Made by a program: the position numbers and the translations under genes. The notes below the pieces were generated by a model, which saw nothing but the letters and a program-made list of their open reading frames with translations, had not been told where the DNA came from and ran no database searches. DNA of 55,204 bases from Sinomicrobium pectinilyticum (GTDB taxonomy: Bacteria; Bacteroidota; Bacteroidia; Flavobacteriales; Flavobacteriaceae), in NCBI RefSeq assembly GCF_003725735.1, contig NZ_RJTM01000005.1, positions 1-55,204 on the forward strand, read 5' to 3'. Below, piece by piece: positions 6,788 to 49,173 of the stretch (the stretch's first letter is position 1; every line of letters begins with the position of its first letter).

Positions 6788-8203
6788 CTAATTCGGACTA
6801 TCGGTATTGGCTTCGTTTTCCCGGCCGGTATTAAAACCTCCCGCCAGGGTCCGGTATAAATCGATTCGTATTTCGTATAATTCCTGTTGTGTTTCCAGCC
6901 AGTCGCGCTGTAATTGTTGTTGTTGCTCCAGGGCCAGTAGCACATCGAGGTATTCCGTAAAACCGTTCAGGAATTCGATATGCAATTGCTTATTTACTTT
7001 TTCGGCCATGCTCAACCGGTTTTCCAGGACGTCCAGGCGTTTGAACTGGTTTTCTTCCCGGATCAAGGCATTTTCAACTTCCTGAAAAGCCGTAAGCACG
7101 GTTTGCCCGTATTGATAAAGTTGCTGCATTTTTACTGCTTCTGTCCTGTCTACCTCTGCCCGCAGCCTTCCCCAGTATAAGATCGGGGCCAGCAGGTTTG
7201 CCCCGAGTGTATATGCCCAGCCCGAAAATAGCTGGCGGTATTCATTGGATCGTGCCTGCATGGAGAGGTTTAATGACAGCCGGGGAAACTTATTCCGGAC
7301 GACTGCGGCCATATCGCGATCGGCGGCGAGCAATAAATTATACTCACGTTGCAGGTCCGGCCGCCTTCTGATAAGTTCCAGGGGGAGCCCGGTGACGGGA
7401 AGATCGGGGAGGTCGGGCAATGAATCCCGCAATTCCGTAGTAAAATCCTGGGGGGATACCCCTGTAAACACGGCGAGTTGATTCCTCAGAACATTTAAAT
7501 TGGTCTCATAAATAATGTATTGATCTTTGGCTTCTTCCAGTAACTGGCGCTGGCGCAGGATATCCACACCTTTTATTTGTCCCCCTCCGAAACGGGCCCG
7601 GATTAGTGTAATGATTTTCTGATTGGTTTCAATTTGTTGGGTAGCCAGTTTCAATTGTTTTTTAGTCGTAAGGAGTTGAAACCAGACTATTGCGATCTCG
7701 GCAGACAAGGTCATGGCTGCGGCCTGATAATCGTAATATGTGGCCTGCAACCTGAAATCTTCGGCACTCAGATCGGTCCGTATCCTTCCCCATAAATCCA
7801 CTTCATAGTCGGCCGAAAGTCCCAGTTGGGTGTTTTCCCCTCCGGCAAAATCGGGTTTCGGGCGGCTGATTGCCGTTTGTGCGTTTGCCTCGATATCCGG
7901 CAGTAAAAAAGTAGATTGTGTTTTGCGGATGGCCTCGGCTTCTTTCAGCTGATACCATATACTTGTCAGGTTCATATTATTGGCGAAGGCGCTGTCCATT
8001 AAGATATTCAATTGTTCATCCCGGAATGTTGTCCACCATTTATCTGGCATAACGGCGTAACCTGTCGATGAAAAACTTTCCGGTTTTCCTACAGGGGCCT
8101 CGATAACCTTCATTTCGGGAGAACAGCACACAAAACCCGTCACCAATAAAACGAATGCTGAAAATTTTCTCGGGGATGATATGTTTGGAGAATGTGATAT
8201 CAA
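6788..8203 (-). CDS. Outer-membrane efflux protein, TolC/NodT family lipoprotein
   Basis: A 471-aa outer-membrane channel subunit and the first gene of the efflux operon. A signal peptide ends in VTGFVCCSPE, a lipobox-like site, which fits the lipid-anchored NodT/OprM group. Two TolC-type repeats are visible: long coiled-coil helices (QLKLATQQIETNQKIITLIRA and the paired EKVNKQLHIEFLNGFTEYLDV), strands such as LSADYEVDLWGRI, and the family motif P-x-L-P-x-L...GLPLELIRRRPDLQ. The only in-frame start upstream of the signal peptide is TTG at 8203. No in-frame ATG precedes it before a stop. No regulator gene is adjacent. Confidence 0.92.
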   Translation of the reverse strand: MISHSPNISSPRKFSAFVLLVTGFVCCSPEMKVIEAPVGKPESFSSTGYAVMPDKWWTTFRDEQLNILMDSAFANNMNLTSIWYQLKEAEAIRKTQSTFLLPDIEANAQTAISRPKPDFAGGENTQLGLSADYEVDLWGRIRTDLSAEDFRLQATYYDYQAAAMTLSAEIAIVWFQLLTTKKQLKLATQQIETNQKIITLIRARFGGGQIKGVDILRQRQLLEEAKDQYIIYETNLNVLRNQLAVFTGVSPQDFTTELRDSLPDLPDLPVTGLPLELIRRRPDLQREYNLLLAADRDMAAVVRNKFPRLSLNLSMQARSNEYRQLFSGWAYTLGANLLAPILYWGRLRAEVDRTEAVKMQQLYQYGQTVLTAFQEVENALIREENQFKRLDVLENRLSMAEKVNKQLHIEFLNGFTEYLDVLLALEQQQQLQRDWLETQQELYEIRIDLYRTLAGGFNTGRENEANTDSPN

Positions 8204-39847: not shown

Positions 39848-41626
39848 ATGAAGTTTAAGACCAAATTACTGCTCTCCTTCGGTTTTTTATTTATTATCAT
39901 CCTGTTATTGGGACTGGTAGGCAGTTTTTATGTCAAAAAACTCGGAGAAGAAGCTTCGAATATTCTGAAGGACAACAACCGTACATTGCAGTATATGCAA
40001 CGGATAAATACGGAAATCGATGCCATCGAAAAAATACTGGTCCTCAATCTGCCCGGTCGGGTAGAGCCGTATTTGTCCGAAGTGAATGCCCAGCTCCGGC
40101 TTCAAAAGAATAATATTACCGAAACGGGGGAAGCAGGGCTCACCCAAAAACTGGAAAAGAATATAAAGGACTTTACTGAAATACTGGATAAGGGCCGAAA
40201 GCGGGAAAGTATGGAATCTCTTTTCCTGATAAGGGAACTTACCGATCAGATCTATGAGATCAATCAGGAAAAAATATCGGAAAGCAATCAAAAGGTCAAT
40301 GACACTTCCGACAGGGTATTCGTTTCCATGGTTATTATCGCTTTTGCCACACTTGTGATCGGACTTTTCTTTACATTCGGCATGCCCGGTTATCTTACCA
40401 GGTCCATTAAAAAGTTTGACAAGGCTATTGACAAGGTATCCCGGGGAATATATGATGTAAATGTTCCGGCGAACCGAAAAGACGAATTCGGGCATTTAGC
40501 CGCTTCCTTTAATTTGATGGCACTCAAACTCAAGGAGTTCGAACAGAGTAACTATGCGAAAATCCTTTTCGAAAAGAACAGGCTGGATACCATTATCAAC
40601 CAGCTTTCCGAAGCTATTATAGGACTGGATCAGAACAAGCATATCCTGTTTGTCAATCAACGGGCACTTGCTTTACTGGGATTGAAGCAAAAAGAAATCC
40701 GGGGAAAATATGCACCGGATATTGCCATGCATAACGAATTAATGCAGAATCTGATCCGGGAATTAATGATAGGAGGCTATACCGGAGATTATGCGTCCCA
40801 TCCCATTAAGGTTACGGAGGACAAGAAAGAAAAGTCTTTTTCCAAGGATATTATCGATATTATAACAAATCCGACAGGTGAAGGGGAAAGAAAAATCCTG
40901 ATAGGGCATGTGATCATTTTAACCGATATCACGGAGTTTGCCGATAAAGACAAGGCCAAAACCCGTTTCATGGCTACATTAAGCCATGAATTAAAAACCC
41001 CGGTAGCAGCAATTGATATGGGGGCGGGGTTGTTGCAAAATAAAAAGACGGGGACCTTGAACGAAGAACAGGAAGAATGGGTGAAAACCATTGTGCAAAA
41101 CAATGACCGCATAAAGCGGACGATTAATGAAATACTGGACCTGTCCAAAATAGAAAGTGGCAGTATAGACGTGTTGAGTTCCCGGACAAAAGTAGGCTAC
41201 CTGGTAGACTCTGCCATTCTGGGGATACAACCGTTTATTAAAGATAAGAAATTAACGGTACAAAATCTTTCGGTCGTAAATGAATCGGAAGTCCTGGCGG
41301 ATCCCCAGAAAGTGATCTGGATATTGAATAATTTTTTGACCAATGCCATCCGTTACTCTCCTGAAGAGGGGACGATAAAGGTAAGTGCAGAGGCAGAAGG
41401 TTATTTTATCAGAATCTCGGTAACTGACCAGGGGAAAGGGGTCGATCCCGCACAGAAAAAAACTATTTTTAAACCCTATTCCAGGCTTAAGGGCGACCAA
41501 TCCGAAGGTACCGGGCTGGGACTTGCCATCTCCAAGGAATTTGTCGAGGCTATGGGAGGAAGTATAGGTTTGTTTTCCAGGGAGGACCAGGGGGTAACAT
41601 TCTGGATTAAGCTGAGAAAGCCATAA
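39848..41626 (+). CDS. Membrane sensor histidine kinase (HAMP-PAS-HisKA-HATPase), partner of the Kdp regulator
   Basis: A 592-aa kinase. It has TM1 (~8-28), a periplasmic helical region (~29-155), TM2 (~158-182), a HAMP linker, a PAS-like domain (~240-345, LDTIINQLSEAIIGLDQN), HisKA with the phospho-acceptor His380 in LSHELKTPVAAID, and a HATPase domain with the N box NNFLTNAIRYSPEE, G1 DQGKGVD and G2 GTGLGLAI. It is last in the kdp gene train. It carries the catalytic half that the KdpD-like protein lacks, so the two genes together form a split KdpD. The cognate regulator is probably the sigma-54 activator at the head of the cluster. Confidence 0.92.
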   Translation: MKFKTKLLLSFGFLFIIILLLGLVGSFYVKKLGEEASNILKDNNRTLQYMQRINTEIDAIEKILVLNLPGRVEPYLSEVNAQLRLQKNNITETGEAGLTQKLEKNIKDFTEILDKGRKRESMESLFLIRELTDQIYEINQEKISESNQKVNDTSDRVFVSMVIIAFATLVIGLFFTFGMPGYLTRSIKKFDKAIDKVSRGIYDVNVPANRKDEFGHLAASFNLMALKLKEFEQSNYAKILFEKNRLDTIINQLSEAIIGLDQNKHILFVNQRALALLGLKQKEIRGKYAPDIAMHNELMQNLIRELMIGGYTGDYASHPIKVTEDKKEKSFSKDIIDIITNPTGEGERKILIGHVIILTDITEFADKDKAKTRFMATLSHELKTPVAAIDMGAGLLQNKKTGTLNEEQEEWVKTIVQNNDRIKRTINEILDLSKIESGSIDVLSSRTKVGYLVDSAILGIQPFIKDKKLTVQNLSVVNESEVLADPQKVIWILNNFLTNAIRYSPEEGTIKVSAEAEGYFIRISVTDQGKGVDPAQKKTIFKPYSRLKGDQSEGTGLGLAISKEFVEAMGGSIGLFSREDQGVTFWIKLRKP

Positions 41627-41987: not shown

Positions 41988-43622
41988 GTGATGAAATTAA
42001 AAAACAAATATACAGGCCCCGGCTTATTTCTCATGATGGCAGTTTTCTTTTCCTGTAGTGAAAAAACGAAAGTAGCGAAGGAAGAAAACTATTTTCCGTT
42101 GGATAGCCTGGTCACTGTAAACGAGGTTGGAGCCGGAAACATGCCCGATACCATTGCCGAGGTTCATGCACCTTTTAAAATGCCCGGTTTTAAAAGGCCG
42201 GTGTTTCCGGAAAGGACAATTTCCATCAGGGAAAAAGGAGCGCAACAAAACCGGCTGAGCACCAAAGCCATTCAGGAAGCCATAGATGAGATCAGTAAAA
42301 AAGGAGGGGGGAGAGTTGTTATCCCCGAAGGGAAATGGAGATCCGGGAGAATAAGTTTAAAAAGCAATGTCAACCTACACCTGGAACAAGGTGCCGAACT
42401 TTATTTTAGCGGAGCACTGGAAGATTACCGCCCGGCAGTATTTACCCGCCATGAAGGTGTGGAGGTCATGTCTCTGGGAGCCTGTATATATGCGTATAAA
42501 CAGGACAATATTGCCATAACCGGAAAAGGAACATTGTACGGCCCGGAAGAGGGGCCGGTAAAAGACCAGATGATGACCGAAGATGTCACCGAAAAATTTG
42601 TTCCTGTTGAAAAGCCTGTGGAAGAACGGGTTTATGAGGGATATAACGGGGAGTCCATTTTTCTTCCGATGTTTATTTCACCTACCGATTGTACCAATGT
42701 TTATATTGAAGGGATCACGCTCGAACGATCTGCTTTTTGGAATATAGTGCCGGTTTATTGTGACGGGGTGATTATCCGGGGCGTAACCGTAAATTCGGTC
42801 GGGATTCCCCGTGGCGACGGTATAGATATAGAATCTTCCCGCAATGTACTTATCGAATATTCCACACTCAACAACGGTGATGACTGTTTTACGATGAAAG
42901 CCGGCCGGGGGAAAGACGGGATCCGGGTGAACAGGCCTACCGAAAATGTTGTTGTCCGTTATTGCCTGGCCAAAGAGGGGCATGGAGGAATAACGGTAGG
43001 AAGTGAGACAGCAGGTAAGATCAATAACCTTTATATACACGATTGTGTTTTTGACAATACGGGAGTAGGCATACGCTTTAAGACCCGGAGGCCCCGGGGC
43101 GGAGGAGGAGAGAATTTTATTTATGAAAGGATACGGATGAACCTGCGGCAAACCGCTTTTCGCTGGGATATGCTGGGGAGTGAAATGTATGTCGGAGATC
43201 TTGCAAAAAGGGAACCGTTTTTAGAGGTGAATGAACTGACGCCGAAATTTAAGGACATTCACATTAAAGATATTCTGGTAACACAAGCCTCAACTTTTGT
43301 GAATATCAACGGAATTCCGGAATCACCGTTGGAAAATCTGCTTATGGAAAATATACGTGTAGAAAATAGCAAGCGGTTTTTTAATGCAGATGATGCAAAA
43401 AACCTGAGGTTTAAAAACGTATATGTAGCCAGCCGGGATTCTCTGATGAAATTTCTGGACACCCGCGATGTGATTTTCGAAGACTCGGAGTTTAGGGTGA
43501 ACGGAGGGGAAATTCATACTCAAATAAAAGGAGACCTTTCCGGGAATATTCAGTTTAAGAACACCAGTCCGTCAAAGCCACAGGATTGGGAGAAAACTAC
43601 ATATAAGAGAGCCCAAGAATAG
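41988..43622 (+). CDS. Glycoside hydrolase family 28 (polygalacturonase-like) lipoprotein
   Basis: A 544-aa protein with a lipoprotein signal (LFLMMAVFFSCSEK, Cys at ~24). The mature part is a right-handed beta-helix: it starts with STKAIQEAIDEISKKGGGRVVIPEG, the pectate-lyase-superfamily entry, and carries GH28 active-site-like motifs: RGDGIDIESS (for NTDG), NNGDDCFTMKAG (GDD), EGHGGITVGSE (GHG) and GIRFKTRR (RIK). The NTD motif is altered to GDG at its start, so the exact linkage may differ from plain polygalacturonase. It is probably anchored in the outer or periplasmic membrane and trims a pectin-type glycan. It lies 42 bp before the RuBisCO-like gene and may feed that pathway. Confidence 0.88.
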   Translation: MMKLKNKYTGPGLFLMMAVFFSCSEKTKVAKEENYFPLDSLVTVNEVGAGNMPDTIAEVHAPFKMPGFKRPVFPERTISIREKGAQQNRLSTKAIQEAIDEISKKGGGRVVIPEGKWRSGRISLKSNVNLHLEQGAELYFSGALEDYRPAVFTRHEGVEVMSLGACIYAYKQDNIAITGKGTLYGPEEGPVKDQMMTEDVTEKFVPVEKPVEERVYEGYNGESIFLPMFISPTDCTNVYIEGITLERSAFWNIVPVYCDGVIIRGVTVNSVGIPRGDGIDIESSRNVLIEYSTLNNGDDCFTMKAGRGKDGIRVNRPTENVVVRYCLAKEGHGGITVGSETAGKINNLYIHDCVFDNTGVGIRFKTRRPRGGGGENFIYERIRMNLRQTAFRWDMLGSEMYVGDLAKREPFLEVNELTPKFKDIHIKDILVTQASTFVNINGIPESPLENLLMENIRVENSKRFFNADDAKNLRFKNVYVASRDSLMKFLDTRDVIFEDSEFRVNGGEIHTQIKGDLSGNIQFKNTSPSKPQDWEKTTYKRAQE

Positions 43623-43664: not shown

Positions 43665-44915
43665 ATGGAAAGAATAAAAGCTACATACTATATCGAGACC
43701 CCTTTTGATATAGAGAAATCGGCAAAAGTCCTGGCCGGGGAACAGTCTACGGGAACCTTTGTGAAGATCCCCGGCGAAACAGCAGAACTGAAAGAACGAT
43801 TTGCTGCCCGGGTGGAGCAGATCAGATACCTGGAAAGTGTTTCACAACCTGCCATGCCCGGTACTCATGCCGATTTTCCATCTTATCACCGGGGGATGGT
43901 GGAAGTGTCCTGGTCGGTTGAGAACTTTGCTTATAATCTGCCAGCGCTGATTTCGACACTGCAGGGGAATCTATACGAGTTAAAACAATTTACCGGTTTA
44001 AAACTGATGGATATCGAAATGCCTGCCAGTTACGCAGCACACTTTAAAGGACCCCGGTTCGGCATTGAAGGCTCCCGGAAACTTACGGGCGTTAATGAAA
44101 ACCGGCCTGTGATGGGGACCATAATCAAACCCAGTATAGGAATGACTCCCGAACAAACGGCCCGCCTTGTGCAAACACTGGTAAATGCCGGAATTGATTT
44201 TATCAAAGATGACGAATTAATGACTTCTCCGTCCAATTCTCCTTTTAAAGCCCGCGTTGATGCAGTGATGCGTGTCATTGACGAGTATGCCGATAAAACG
44301 GGGAAAAAAGTGATGTACGCTTTTAATATCAGTGACGGGATCGATGAAATGCTCCGGAATTATGAATATGTCTGTGCAAAGGGAGGAAATTGTGCTATGA
44401 TAAGTTTGAATAGTGTAGGGCTTTCCGGAACTAAAAAAATATGCGATCAGGGAGAACTGGTCATTCACGGACATCGCAACGGATGGGGTATGATGAACAG
44501 GCACCCCTTATTGGGGATCGATTTTTCAGCCTATCAGAAGCTGTGGCGGCTGGTCGGTGTAGATCAGATCCATGTTAACGGGATTCAAAATAAGTTCTGG
44601 GAATCAGATGATTCGGTTGTCAGTTCCATTAAGGCCTGTTTAAAACCGATGTTAGGCGGGTATACCGTATTGCCCGTAGTTTCTTCGGGGCAATGGGGCG
44701 GACAGGCTCCCGAGACCTATCGCAGAACAAAGACCACAGATTTGCTCTATATGGCAGGAGGAGGAATAATGGCGCACCCCGATGGTCCGGAAGGCGGGGT
44801 GGTTGCATTAAAACAGGCATGGGAGGCCGCTGTGAACGGAATGTCTGTGGAGCATGCGGCAAAGAAATATGCGGCTTTCGGGAAATCGGTTAAAAAATTC
44901 GGATCGGAGGTATGA
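43665..44915 (+). CDS. RuBisCO-like protein (form IV), candidate 3-oxo-isoapionate-4-phosphate decarboxylase
   Basis: A 416-aa RuBisCO large-chain homologue. The TIIKPSIGMTPEQ motif (Lys155) and the metal/carbamate site DFIKDDE (Lys181, Asp183, Glu184) are kept, and so is a VIHGHRNGWG...DQIHVNG His region. The C-terminal phosphate-binding segment is SSGQWGGQAPET...MAGGGIMAHPDG. The loop-6 GK motif of true RuBisCO is replaced (VNGIQNKFWES), so this is not expected to fix CO2. It overlaps the next gene, a DUF1537 acid-sugar kinase, by 4 bp. The pair RLP plus DUF1537 kinase is known in D-apiose/apionate catabolism as OiaX and OiaK, where the RLP decarboxylates 3-oxo-isoapionate 4-phosphate to L-erythrulose 1-phosphate. 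I infer that role or a close relative of it. Confidence 0.88.
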   Translation: MERIKATYYIETPFDIEKSAKVLAGEQSTGTFVKIPGETAELKERFAARVEQIRYLESVSQPAMPGTHADFPSYHRGMVEVSWSVENFAYNLPALISTLQGNLYELKQFTGLKLMDIEMPASYAAHFKGPRFGIEGSRKLTGVNENRPVMGTIIKPSIGMTPEQTARLVQTLVNAGIDFIKDDELMTSPSNSPFKARVDAVMRVIDEYADKTGKKVMYAFNISDGIDEMLRNYEYVCAKGGNCAMISLNSVGLSGTKKICDQGELVIHGHRNGWGMMNRHPLLGIDFSAYQKLWRLVGVDQIHVNGIQNKFWESDDSVVSSIKACLKPMLGGYTVLPVVSSGQWGGQAPETYRRTKTTDLLYMAGGGIMAHPDGPEGGVVALKQAWEAAVNGMSVEHAAKKYAAFGKSVKKFGSEV

Positions 44916-46261
44916 GTTCTGATGAGGGATTATTACTGGCTTTTTATGGCGATGATTTTACAGGCTCTACCGATGCCCTGGAATTTCTGAGTTGTGCCGG
45001 GGCAAAAACAATCTTGTTTGTTGAACCGCCTGCACCGGAACAGCTCAGAAAATATAAGGATCTCGACGCCATAGGTGTTGCCGGGATGACCAGGGCTATG
45101 GACAATGACGCCATGCATAAAGAATTAATGGCTGCATTTCCGGCATTGAAGAAAACCAATGCCCGGCATATTCACTATAAAGTCTGTTCCACATTCGATT
45201 CGTCCCCGGAAACAGGCAGTATCGGAAAAGTCATTGACATTGCTGCCGGGATATTTTCAAATGATTGCATCCCGCTTTTGGTCGCAGCCCCGGTACTGGG
45301 AAGATATTGTGCCTTTGGAAATCTCTTTGCCCGTATGGGCATTGGCAGTAATGGTCAGATATATCGTCTGGACCGCCATCCCTCAATGAAGAACCATCCG
45401 ACAACACCGGCCGATGAAAGCGATCTGAGGTTACACCTTGCAAGGCAGACCCTGAAAAAGATCGGACTGGTAGATGTGCTGGAGGTCAATCTTCCCGAGG
45501 ATGAACTGGCCGGAGTGTACCAGGATAAAGTAGATAAAGGTGCCGAGATCATGCTCTTTGATGCCATGTACAAAGAACAATTAATGCCCATTGGCAGGTT
45601 GATCGACTCAAGGACAAGTGAGGACAGACCGCTTTTTTCGGTCGGGTCTTCAGGGATTGAAATGGCTTTGGGAGAGCATTGGCAGGCTACGGGCAGACTT
45701 CGGAAACCGGCCGGCTGGCCCGAAATTGACCGTGTAGATCAACTGCTGGTGGTCTCGGGAAGCTGTTCTCCGGTGACTTCTTCCCAGATATCCTGGGCAA
45801 CTGCTCATGGTTTTGAAGCCATTGTAATAGATACCCCGGCCATAAGCCGGGGACAGGATATTGATAAAATGTTACGGGATTATACAGAGCAGGTTGTAAG
45901 CCTGTTACAGGAACATAAGAGTGTTATAGTGCATACGGGATGCAGGGAAAATAAAGATCCGGATCTCGTAAACCCGAAAACAGATACGGCAAAATTATTC
46001 GGTTCCTTCCTTGGAAAAATAGTAAAGGAAACAGCAACCAGAACAGGCTTAAAACGAATTGTTGTCGCAGGAGGGGATACCTCGAGTTATGCTGCCCGTA
46101 CCATGGGAATCGAAGCCGTTGAAATGATAGCCCCCCTGACCCCCGGAGCCCCGCTTTGTAAGATACATGCCCCCGGTTCACCTGTGGACGACCTGGAAAT
46201 TAATTTTAAAGGAGGCCAGGTAGGCGGTGCAGACTATTTCGGGATGTTGCAAGGCGAGTGA
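44912..46261 (+). CDS. Four-carbon acid-sugar kinase family protein (DUF1537), OiaK-like
   Basis: A 449-aa kinase of the OtnK/DUF1537 family, which phosphorylates small acid sugars with ATP. The N-terminal substrate domain opens FYGDDFTGSTDALEFLSCAG. The C-terminal nucleotide domain has VVAGGDTSSYAARTMGIEAVE, TPGAPLCKIHAPGSPVDDLEINFKGGQVGGADYFG. Length is usual for the family. It overlaps the RuBisCO-like gene by 4 bp, so translation is coupled. By analogy with OiaK it would phosphorylate 3-oxo-isoapionate just before the RLP step. Erythronate or threonate kinase activity is the alternative, but the PdxA2-type partner expected for those routes is not present. Confidence 0.88.
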   Translation: MSSDEGLLLAFYGDDFTGSTDALEFLSCAGAKTILFVEPPAPEQLRKYKDLDAIGVAGMTRAMDNDAMHKELMAAFPALKKTNARHIHYKVCSTFDSSPETGSIGKVIDIAAGIFSNDCIPLLVAAPVLGRYCAFGNLFARMGIGSNGQIYRLDRHPSMKNHPTTPADESDLRLHLARQTLKKIGLVDVLEVNLPEDELAGVYQDKVDKGAEIMLFDAMYKEQLMPIGRLIDSRTSEDRPLFSVGSSGIEMALGEHWQATGRLRKPAGWPEIDRVDQLLVVSGSCSPVTSSQISWATAHGFEAIVIDTPAISRGQDIDKMLRDYTEQVVSLLQEHKSVIVHTGCRENKDPDLVNPKTDTAKLFGSFLGKIVKETATRTGLKRIVVAGGDTSSYAARTMGIEAVEMIAPLTPGAPLCKIHAPGSPVDDLEINFKGGQVGGADYFGMLQGE

Positions 46262-46557
46262 GAGCAGAGGGATGTTTAAAATATTTAAATAATCTAAAGT
46301 GAATAATGTTTAAGTTGTTCAGGTCAAAAACATTGAATTGTAAAAAAGAGTTCCTCCCTTTAGACAAAGGGAGGTGGGCAAACTTTAGTTTGGTCGGAGG
46401 GTTTGATAACCCAAGCCATAGGTATTGTATAAAAGTTTGGGGTTAATCCCGGGATATGGGCTGGGTCAAACTCCCCGTCCCGCAAGCGGGACACCCCTCT
46501 TCGTCTGAAGAGGGGAGCCTTATCCATTATTCACGTTAATCTATAAAATCGATACAG
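46262..46557 (+). other. 296-bp gap inside the RuBisCO-like operon, filled with palindromes
   Basis: No gene is visible. The gap holds the palindromic element at 46353-46515. Without a clear promoter box before 46558 it is uncertain whether the racemase-like gene is transcribed with the kinase gene or separately. Confidence 0.6.
46353..46515 (+). repeat. GC-rich intergenic palindrome cluster (REP/BIME-like)
   Basis: There are three perfect hairpins: CCTCCCTTT/AAAGGGAGG (46353-46361 with 46366-46374), GTCCCGC-AA-GCGGGAC (46477-46492) and CCCCTCTTC-GTCT-GAAGAGGGG (46494-46515). TTTGGTCGGAGGGTTTGA and TCAAACTCCCCG in between may pair over a distance. It is similar in style to the kdpB-kdpC element. 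Confidence 0.7.
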
Positions 46558-47220
46558 ATGAAAAGTAAAACATTAGGGCTCATACATACATCGGCAACTT
46601 TGGTACCTGTATTTAAAGAGTTGTGTGATATCCTGTTGCCCGGTACAACGGTTTTCAATATTGTAGACGACAGTTTAATTAAAGACGTCATCCGGAAAGG
46701 AAAATTAACCCGGACAACGGCAAGGAGGGTTGTAGATCATGTAGGATCGGCAGAAATTGCAGGGGCAGATCATATTCTGGTGACATGTTCATCCATCGGC
46801 GCGGCAGTAGAAGTAGCGGACTCCCTTACAGAAGTACCCGTTCTGCGCGTGGATCAGCCTATGGTAGACCTGGCCATAAATACCGGTACCAGGATCGGGG
46901 TTATCGCTACCCTTCCGACTACCCTGGAACCTACCAGTGATCTGGTAAGGCGAAGAGCTCTGGTGGCCAAAAAGAAAATTGATATCACTTCCAGATTGTG
47001 TGAAGGTGCCTTTGATGCCCTGATGAATGGTGATCCCGACAAACACGATGACATGGTAGCAGGCGCACTCAGGCAACTGGCCGAAGAAGTGGATGTGATC
47101 TTACTGGCTCAGGCCTCTATGGCCCGGGTGGTAGAAAAACTGGGTGAAGCGGATAAAAAAGTGCCTATCATTTCAAGTCCGTCGGAGGCTATTAAGCACC
47201 TGGCTTCAATATTAAACTGA
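46558..47220 (+). CDS. Asp/Glu racemase-superfamily protein with a single catalytic Cys
   Basis: A 220-aa soluble alpha/beta protein of the Asp/Glu/hydantoin racemase superfamily. The N-terminus is GLIHTSATLVPVF. The first catalytic cysteine region ILVTCSSIGAAVE (Cys77) is present. The position of the second cysteine, usually L-(A/G)-C-T, reads LLAQASMAR, so Gln185 replaces it; the only other Cys residues are 23 and 148. Two-cysteine racemisation therefore looks unlikely. Single-Cys members of this fold include arylmalonate decarboxylase. It is followed 2 bp later by the BASS transporter gene, so the two are tightly coupled and probably belong with the RLP/kinase genes. The reaction is unknown; a decarboxylase, isomerase or tautomerase step on an acid sugar is my guess. 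Confidence 0.8.
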   Translation: MKSKTLGLIHTSATLVPVFKELCDILLPGTTVFNIVDDSLIKDVIRKGKLTRTTARRVVDHVGSAEIAGADHILVTCSSIGAAVEVADSLTEVPVLRVDQPMVDLAINTGTRIGVIATLPTTLEPTSDLVRRRALVAKKKIDITSRLCEGAFDALMNGDPDKHDDMVAGALRQLAEEVDVILLAQASMARVVEKLGEADKKVPIISSPSEAIKHLASILN

Positions 47221-47222
47221 CC

Positions 47223-48551
47223 ATGATCGGAAAATTACAGAGAATAAGCCTTTATATCAGCTTTTTAGCGGTTGTATGCATGGGGGGAATGTTCCTTGCA
47301 AAAAATGACTTGTGGCAGCTTTTTATGGTTGCCGCCGCTTGCTTTTTTTCTGTCGGGATCGGTGCTGTTTCATATTTAAAGGGATACCAGTATACGGCCT
47401 GGATCATAACAGCGGTTATTGCCGCTTTATGCTATCCCTCAAATTTTCTCCATTGGGGAGATCTGGACCTCAGACACCCCTGGCTGGTTCTCCTGGTCAT
47501 ACAATTTGTAATGTTCGGAATGGGAGTTCAGATGAAGTTAAAGGATTTCAGCGGTCTTAAGACCTCGTTCCGCGGCGTTCTGGTCGGGTTATTATGCCAG
47601 TTTTCGATAATGCCGATAATCGGTTTCATCTTAACCCGCGTATTTGATTTTGAACCGGAAATAGCGGCCGGGGTCATACTTATCGGAGCCTGTTCCAGTG
47701 GTTTGGCTTCCAATGTCATGGTCTACATTGCCCGTTCTAATCTGGTTTTATCGGTTACGGTAACCGCCGTTGCAACACTGGTAGCTCCTTTTCTGACGCC
47801 ACTGTTAATGAAAGTGCTGGCGGGCACCCTGGTTGAAATTGAGTTTGTCAATATGATGATACAGATCATCAAGATCGTCCTGGTCCCTATCGGTGCGGCA
47901 TTATTATACGACCATCTTAAAAATACAAATCACAGGGTATTGAAAAAAATGAATGTCATTGTCCTTATATGCTTCACCTGGTTAATAGCCCTTCCTTTGG
48001 GATTGTGGAAATTTCTGGAAACCCATCTTTCAGATGAAGCGCTTCAGTCTGCCGAAATTTTCGGATTTATATTAAGTGCCATTGTAGCCGGGGCTGTATA
48101 TTACAAGCTCACCGGATATTTTACCGGACTGGACAGGTTTATGCCTTATGTTTCAATGTTCGGTATTATTTATTTTACAGCGATAACAACGGCTGCCGGA
48201 CGTGATAATTTACTGCGCATAGGACCCTTGTTATTTTTGGCTTCGGTTATTCACAATACATTGGGATATATATTTGGTTACTGGTTCAGCCGGGCCTTAA
48301 AACTGGATAAGAATTCCGCCCGTTCTATGGCCTTTGAAGTTGGCCTGCAAAACGGGGGAATGGCTTCCGGGTTAGCGGCCGTAATGGGGAAACTGGGTAC
48401 AGTCGGACTGGCAGCAGCCGTATTTAGTCCCTGGATGAATATTTCAGGATCACTTTTGGCTAATTACTGGAAACGAAATCCGGTAGATGCGAAAAAAACT
48501 GTAAGGAAGCCCAAACATAAATTCGGGATCTTGAAAAGTTTTCAAAAATAA
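47223..48551 (+). CDS. BASS-family sodium/organic-anion symporter
   Basis: A 442-aa inner-membrane protein of the bile acid:sodium symporter superfamily. An N-terminal extension of about three hydrophobic helices precedes the core. The core begins MFGMGVQMKLKDFSGL and has GACSSGLASNVMVYIARSNLVLSVTVTAVATL, the crossing-helix Na+ site region, and in the second half EVGLQNGGMASGLAAVMG, the second crossing helix. It is 2 bp after the racemase-like gene. Relatives carry pantoate, pyruvate-type acids or sterol anions, so in this context import of the acid-sugar substrate of the operon is likely. The C-terminus is basic and cytoplasmic. Confidence 0.88.
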   Translation: MIGKLQRISLYISFLAVVCMGGMFLAKNDLWQLFMVAAACFFSVGIGAVSYLKGYQYTAWIITAVIAALCYPSNFLHWGDLDLRHPWLVLLVIQFVMFGMGVQMKLKDFSGLKTSFRGVLVGLLCQFSIMPIIGFILTRVFDFEPEIAAGVILIGACSSGLASNVMVYIARSNLVLSVTVTAVATLVAPFLTPLLMKVLAGTLVEIEFVNMMIQIIKIVLVPIGAALLYDHLKNTNHRVLKKMNVIVLICFTWLIALPLGLWKFLETHLSDEALQSAEIFGFILSAIVAGAVYYKLTGYFTGLDRFMPYVSMFGIIYFTAITTAAGRDNLLRIGPLLFLASVIHNTLGYIFGYWFSRALKLDKNSARSMAFEVGLQNGGMASGLAAVMGKLGTVGLAAAVFSPWMNISGSLLANYWKRNPVDAKKTVRKPKHKFGILKSFQK

Positions 48552-48711: not shown

Positions 48712-49173
48712 CTATATGGGAAAGCCATAGCTTATTTTTGTGGTATCCATTACTACATGCGTATAAAAATGTTTAAGGTTCTTATTATCCATTAAATATT
48801 GTTTTGAAAATTGTTCAAAATGAGTCATGTCCCTTGTTTGTACAATTAAAACAAAATCGTAACTCCCGGTAACATAATAACATTGAAATACCTCCGGGCA
48901 AGCTTTCATATCGGCTTTAAACTCATCAATTTTAGCAGAGCTTCCCTCGTGAAGTATGACATCAACCACAGTGGTTATACCAACCCCCAATGCGGATGAT
49001 GAAACAATGGCAATTTCTGCTTCAATAATTTTTTCCTTTCTAAGCCTTGAAATCCTTCGTTGAACGGCACTTTGACTAAGGTTTAATTTTTCACCCAGCT
49101 CTTGTGTAGTGAGCCTATTGTTTTGCTGTAGCAGTCTTAATATTCCTTTATCAAAATTATCTAAGTCTTTCAT
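48712..49173 (-). CDS. Lrp/AsnC family transcriptional regulator
   Basis: A 153-aa DNA-binding protein. The N-terminal helix-turn-helix is LDNFDKGILRLLQQNNRLTTQELGEKLNLSQSAVQRRISRLRKEKII; the C-terminal RAM/ligand-binding domain has FKADMKACPEVFQCYYVTGSYDFVLIV. Length is usual. It is divergent from a GNAT gene with a 138-bp shared intergenic region, so it probably controls that gene and itself in response to an amino acid or related ligand. The coding sequence is more AT-rich than the neighbouring operons. Confidence 0.93.
   Translation of the reverse strand: MKDLDNFDKGILRLLQQNNRLTTQELGEKLNLSQSAVQRRISRLRKEKIIEAEIAIVSSSALGVGITTVVDVILHEGSSAKIDEFKADMKACPEVFQCYYVTGSYDFVLIVQTRDMTHFEQFSKQYLMDNKNLKHFYTHVVMDTTKISYGFPI

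Follow-up and report, generated by a model that had tools for sequence, protein, structure and literature searches.

The 55 204-nt stretch of Sinomicrobium pectinilyticum DNA analysed here (contig NZ_RJTM01000005.1; below, the window) carries four adjacent genes, coding for a RuBisCO-like protein (RLP), a DUF1537 kinase, an Asp/Glu-racemase-fold protein and a BASS-family symporter (Table 1). We propose, with a probability of roughly 0.7 that covers the substrate and the logic of the kinase and RLP steps, that this cassette takes up and breaks down aceric acid, a rare sugar acid with a branched chain that occurs in the rhamnogalacturonan-II (RG-II) of plant pectin. As judged from genome comparisons, the four genes form a conserved unit that goes together with an aceric acid hydrolase of glycoside hydrolase family 127 (GH127). 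The substrate assignment appears strong for one made from genomes; the individual enzyme steps are offered as hypotheses.

Conservation of the four-gene cassette

Genome contigs were searched with the RLP, and the best 80 of 579 relatives were used for locus counts, L001–L003 being excluded (the window's own locus in two copies, plus one locus with short flanks). All four genes were present in 74 of the 80 loci, and in 68 they followed the order RLP, kinase, racemase-fold protein, symporter on one strand; in four loci the racemase-fold and symporter genes lie as a pair on the opposite strand, and in two this pair is situated ahead of the RLP and kinase genes. Given 68 loci in order and 74 complete, the four-gene arrangement is not due to chance.

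A first-pass annotation, made from the sequence of the window, had described an RLP gene overlapping a DUF1537 kinase gene by 4 bp, homologous to the OiaX/OiaK pair of D-apionate catabolism, together with an altered racemase-fold protein coupled to a symporter gene 2 bp away. The reading frames agree with this description: RLP and kinase have 4 bp in common, the spacing from the racemase-fold gene to the symporter gene is 2 bp, and the kinase-to-racemase gap measures 296 bp. The nearest NCBIfam models of the first two proteins are indeed those of OiaX and OiaK, and the conservation of the neighbourhood, which had been named as a check, was observed as described above.

Association with the aceric acid hydrolase

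Clustering of neighbouring proteins (L003 counted) revealed a hydrolase in 36 loci, 26 of which have it immediately before the RLP; it is the commonest neighbour besides the cassette itself, the next family being found in 17 loci. This hydrolase corresponds to model NF049879 (aceric acid hydrolase, GH127), which has a curated cut-off of 950 bits: an example neighbour scored 1152.7 bits, and 34 of 35 aligned neighbour proteins matched the model at E≤1e-270 (the remaining clustered protein, from L016, contains X and was dropped from the alignment). The N-termini of most full-length hydrolases resemble signal peptides by eye. When the hydrolase of the window's own genome was used in tblastn, it was detected in 35 of the 80 loci within the compared flanks (up to 10 kb), and in 25 of them it lies on the strand of the RLP, <400 nt upstream. 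Representatives of other recurring neighbours belong to GH106, GH141, GH78-like, BT1020-like beta-propeller, GH2, SASA esterase and GH28 families, which we take to be RG-II enzyme families.

At the level of whole genomes, a hydrolase homologue (E≤1e-150) was present in 77 of the 80 cassette genomes (48/50 and 29/30), and a hydrolase above the curated cut-off in 69 (45/50 and 24/30); the three genomes with no homologue (L042, L046, L071) are metagenome-assembled. The window's own genome has a hydrolase scoring 1096.8 bits, above the cut-off, on contig C166, where it adjoins SusC, SusD and two proteins with PelZ matches below the cut-off.

We also surveyed 392 genomes of the phylum, the window's own among them, regarding as cassette carriers those with an RLP of the same clade at E<1e-150. 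Such an RLP was found in 8 genomes and a hydrolase above the cut-off in 21; all 8 carriers had the hydrolase as compared with 13 of the 384 other genomes (Fisher p = 1.6e-11, or 3.0e-10 with the window's genome removed; as the genomes are related, these values overstate independence). Five more genomes with hydrolase-family matches at E≤1e-150 but below the cut-off were counted as negative, and 106 of the 392 with other RLP matches, at 25–35% identity, were not counted as carriers. The two samples overlap, three of the 8 carriers being also among the 80 loci with identical RLPs (G138 is L032, G342 is L047 and G079 is L062). The racemase-fold protein was present in 8/8 cassette genomes versus 0/13 genomes with the hydrolase only.

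The RLP and its predicted reaction

The nearest NCBIfam model of the RLP is that of OiaX (NF042437), with 516.6 bits against an equivalog cut-off of 700; the catalytic domain PF00016 is well above its gathering cut-off of 30.1. Two other assignments were rejected, methionine-salvage MtnW (TIGR03332; 129.5 bits, cut-off 513.6) and form III RuBisCO (TIGR03326; 242.5 bits, cut-off 497.45). In a tree with 30 of the 90 clade rows of our residue alignment the RLP and its relatives form a clade of their own (support 100/97), not inside the OiaX clade; the form I and Rhodococcus rows have long branches. Neither outcome that had been named as speaking against the first-pass annotation occurred, be it a place of the RLP in the methionine-salvage or another assigned clade or a gene order that is not conserved.

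In RuBisCO numbering, which we assume for the alignment (letters were checked against the aligned form I protein), the equivalents of E60, T65, N123, K175, K201, D203, E204, H294, R295, H327, K334, S379, G381, G403 and G404 are kept in 90/90 rows (87 distinct sequences, with three identical pairs in which the same genome was reached two ways). Compared with RuBisCO, the equivalents of W66, K177, H325 and G380 are changed, and model scores are far below the RuBisCO cut-offs. The four OiaX-group proteins in the alignment, three of them annotated as oiaX and 47.6–49.4% identical to the cassette RLP, replace E60 by D, N123 by G, H327 by Q and S379 by G or C. On the simplest reading of these patterns, residues required for hydrolysis and for adding the carboxylate back disappeared from the OiaX decarboxylases and persisted in the RLP clade. 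The retained equivalents of E60, N123, H327 and S379 fit the carboxyl transfer and hydrolysis predicted for this RLP.

Kinase, racemase-fold protein and symporter

All Pfam matches of the four cassette proteins exceed gathering scores. The kinase matches the OiaK model (NF042436, its nearest) at 407.2 bits, under the equivalog cut-off of 700, and the symporter, with PF01758 far above its cut-off of 24.3, misses the equivalog cut-off of the PanS model (NF047939; 203.5 bits, cut-off 400).

The third protein has the PF01177 match and the fold of the Asp/Glu racemase superfamily, but not its two catalytic cysteines: the first (C77) is kept and the second is replaced by Gln185 in 73/73 sequences, the register of Gln185 coming from weak profile alignments. 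Because the second Cys is an invariant Gln, one-base chemistry is suggested. A search of PDB with the single sequence found nothing; a profile gave weak racemase matches, the structural analysis being based on 44 of the 73 sequences. A designed TIM barrel, 7mcd, was rejected as a relative, since no stretch passes on its own.

Homologues of this protein occur in other contexts. One-Cys homologues (44–47% identity) lie in the rhizobial loci L141–L144 (∼7000–7700) together with FAD oxidoreductases, and no RLP is annotated in the part that was read; in L144 the homologue is followed immediately by otnK. On a Croceibacterium plasmid (L140:6995–8922) a homologue (51%) forms a coupled pair with an MFS transporter, with a TonB receptor and carbohydrate genes alongside and again no RLP annotated in the part read.

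Proposed route

The hydrolase, given its signal-peptide-like N-terminus, would free aceric acid in the periplasm, and the symporter would carry it across the inner membrane; as the GH127 enzyme accounts for release only, the cassette would represent the next stage. The racemase-fold protein, with its one catalytic Cys, would shift a proton between C2 and C1, converting the aldose to the 2-ketose, a beta-keto acid, and the kinase would phosphorylate C1 of this ketose form. Acting on the resulting 3-C-carboxy-5-deoxypentulose 1-phosphate, the RLP would take off the C3 carboxylate to give an enediolate, re-add the carboxylate at C2 and hydrolyse the C2–C3 bond, with 3-phosphoglycerate and lactate as products; the lactate would probably be the L form because aceric acid belongs to the L-xylo series. 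The RLP step is modelled on RuBisCO and on the transcarboxylase/hydrolase OiaT.

The formula of 3-oxo-isoapionate-4-phosphate is CH2OP-CO-C(OH)(COO-)-CH2OH, and OiaT, the Xanthobacter RLP with transcarboxylase/hydrolase activity, yields 3-phosphoglycerate and glycolate. The ketose 1-phosphate of our scheme, CH2OP-CO-C(OH)(COO-)-CHOH-CH3, would be a close homologue of the OiaX substrate with the same reacting core, CHOH-CH3 in place of CH2OH being the sole expected difference. The cassette RLP is predicted to resemble OiaT in mechanism (carboxyl transfer, then hydrolysis), and its co-product would be lactate rather than glycolate. The published account has 3-oxo-isoapionate-4-phosphate decarboxylated or transcarboxylated/hydrolysed by Agrobacterium and Xanthobacter RLPs, the protein of Xanthobacter autotrophicus being the transcarboxylase/hydrolase (PMC6302742). 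Aceric acid is given as 3-C-carboxy-5-deoxy-L-xylose in PMC8218411. The atom balance closes for 3-phosphoglycerate plus lactate, and likewise for CO2 plus 5-deoxypentulose 1-phosphate. Taken as a whole, the three-enzyme carbon-conserving route from the C6 acid to 3-phosphoglycerate and L-lactate (isomerase, 1-kinase and transcarboxylating RLP) is tentative, and we regard it, exactly as laid out, as less likely than not.

No pectin is more complex than RG-II, and enzymes dismantling its side chains have been described in gut Bacteroides. In one open-access library we found no account of aceric acid metabolism in any organism and no paper connecting aceric acid with RLPs. Measured against that library, the cassette would encode a pathway of the RLP/DUF1537 acid-sugar type whose substrate and candidate isomerase are new and whose transporter is different. 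If the proposal is true, aceric acid gains a named four-gene route in soil and water bacteria, RLPs gain a further substrate and perhaps a further pair of products, and recruitment of the racemase fold for sugar isomerization is suggested.

Alternative explanations

With the same cassette and the same substrate, the RLP could be a plain decarboxylase like OiaX, producing 5-deoxypentulose 1-phosphate that an aldolase would split into dihydroxyacetone phosphate and acetaldehyde. Two observations are in favor of this possibility: the nearest group in the tree is that of the four OiaX decarboxylases (support 99/97, a placement that the long OiaX stem may affect), and at the equivalent of RuBisCO H325 the RLP has Gln (Q301), as OiaX does. 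Still, none of the 90 clade rows has the OiaX changes at the four positions E60, N123, H327 and S379, and in the neighbourhoods, to which the search for aldolases was confined, no conserved aldolase was seen, as beyond the cassette and the hydrolase no neighbour family appears in more than 17 loci. Decarboxylation followed by an aldolase is therefore less likely for the RLP step than transcarboxylation with hydrolysis, and we rate it as unlikely; being a sub-case of the aceric acid assignment, it has odds that overlap with those given above for the substrate.

Besides these two resemblances to OiaX, several observations weigh against the aceric acid proposal. The 80 loci are the best RLP matches, a non-random sample with many close relatives, and the kinase is absent from the 21 kb of the full-length loci L019 and L025. 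We know of no aldose–ketose isomerase with the racemase fold, and racemase-fold homologues with the same motifs are encoded in loci where the part that was read shows no RLP. The hydrolase of the window's own genome is unlinked to the cassette, being located on another contig. Nor does the hydrolase require the cassette, because 13 of the 21 hydrolase-positive genomes lack the cassette, and the control Bacteroides ihuae matches the hydrolase model (E≤1e-150) but does not figure among the RLP-positive controls. Finally, no hydrolase was seen in the compared flanks of 45 of the 80 loci (16 of the 80 loci are shorter than 21 kb), and the hydrolase was the one RG-II enzyme counted in the 392 genomes.

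The last two points, together with the several RG-II-type enzymes and GH28 genes in the neighbourhoods, would also fit a cassette acting on another acid of RG-II or pectin, such as 3-deoxy-D-lyxo-heptulosaric acid (Dha), 3-deoxy-D-manno-octulosonic acid (Kdo) or a galacturonate derivative, with the hydrolase adjacent as a member of shared RG-II clusters. It is the hydrolase, though, that exceeds every other neighbour family in frequency, stands immediately upstream of the RLP in a good part of the loci and separates carriers from other genomes of the phylum; moreover, these acids would hardly yield the branched beta-keto acid phosphate on which the RLP group acts. We consider such a substrate distinctly improbable.

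Degradation of D-apionate or another apiose-derived acid, the frame adopted by the first-pass annotation, is the least probable of the readings, a very small chance in our judgement: OiaX and OiaK are the nearest named families, and apiose is an RG-II sugar according to PMC6302742, but the RLP clade is separate, both equivalog cut-offs are missed, the cassette tracks the aceric acid hydrolase, and apiose-type genes are found separately beside a cassette. The oxidoisomerase of the known route had been noted as missing. In our search, 48 cassette genomes (46 of them distinct) gave no match to a Rhizobium protein that we take to be ApnO (no NCBIfam model names it so), where a very divergent ApnO could escape; as a query it matched 3 of the 6 control records, including the one from which it was taken. 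The likeness to the OiaX/OiaK system consists in homologous adjacent RLP and kinase genes; the Rhizobium OiaX/OiaK locus has triose-phosphate-isomerase and RpiB-type genes where the cassette has the racemase-fold protein and the symporter. The earlier suggestion of an undescribed variant pathway is supported in part, by a conserved four-gene unit whose RLP and kinase are homologous to OiaX/OiaK, with apionate unlikely as its substrate; direct entry of an imported acid sugar, which it also put forward, is in line with the aceric acid proposal.

The separate apiose-type genes are located in Sphingobacterium (L080:528–7972), where a ribose-type ABC importer with DUF2291, an FGGY kinase and a split transketolase lie beside the cassette; clustered relatives of these genes are present in L078 (156–6735) and in part in L082. 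The module presumably resembles the apulose route; it looks like a D-apiose/apulose module within the cassette island, with apiose handled separately where it was seen.

Distribution

Carriers of the cassette were found among Bacteroidota, Balneolota and Verrucomicrobiota. Among 60 relatives searched, including the window's own genome, there was one other match (G016), and none of five sampled genus-mates had one. The window's RLP is 77% identical to those of Pontibacter/Cesiribacteraceae members versus 67–69% to those of carriers from its own family. In Rufibacter tibetensis the four-gene cassette (L118:15001–19692) resides on a mobilizable plasmid near GH28 and pectinesterase genes. The sparse carriers among relatives, the RLP closer to those of other families and the plasmid copy indicate that the cassette is patchy and has probably spread horizontally.

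Locus layout and flanking genes

Table 1. Cassette genes and the gene upstream of them in the window
Feature	Position	Strand	Length	Domains and remarks
GH28 polygalacturonase-family enzyme	41988–43622	+		PF00295, 77.4 bits; 42 bp upstream of RLP
RuBisCO-like protein (RLP), clade next to OiaX	43665–44915	+	416 amino acids	PF02788 + PF00016; PF00016 221.4 bits
DUF1537 kinase (four-carbon acid sugar kinase family), OiaK-like	44912–46261	+	449 amino acids	PF07005 + PF17042
Asp/Glu-racemase-fold protein	46558–47220	+	220 amino acids	PF01177
BASS-family symporter, nearest model PanS	47223–48551	+	442 amino acids	PF01758, 114.5 bits

The GH28 gene was left out of the region delimited by the first-pass annotation (43665–48551); judging from spacing and strand, it is perhaps in the same transcription unit as the cassette. 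Its product scores 276.5 bits, below the cut-off of 800, with the NCBIfam model of BT4155-like alpha-D-galacturonidase. On the other side, an Lrp/AsnC gene (48712–49173) was rejected as a part of the cassette, since it is not recurrent, with one weak match (28%, in L013) among the genes shown.

In the rest of the window, ten proteins sampled at 8–30376 were unremarkable in type: efflux components, a pyruvate-dehydrogenase-type E1, a cation ATPase, a phosphoenolpyruvate-utilising enzyme, a PfkB kinase, GH65 and a trehalose phosphatase. With a GC content of 46.5% in the cassette and 44.9% in the rest, base composition gives no sign of foreign DNA. Between positions 41500 and 49400, promoter-like matches were fewer than in shuffled sequences (7 versus a mean of 14.6) and no promoter is claimed; terminator-like sites were commoner (16 versus a mean of 8.7, standard deviation 3.3), and no terminator is claimed either.

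Other RLP–kinase pairs

Further pairs of RLP and DUF1537 kinase genes accompany TRAP or KdgT-type transporters in L120, L121, L122, L123, L135 and L136, with a pyruvate kinase gene near the pair in L120 and L123. These pairs probably represent other acid-sugar RLP pathways; one could guess that the TRAP-linked RLPs (L120–L122, L135) are of the Xanthobacter transcarboxylase type. In Rhizobium etli IE4771 (L133:6971–8254) a gene annotated as oiaX stands among aldo/keto reductases, on a plasmid with no match to the ApnO query, and this annotation may hide another function.

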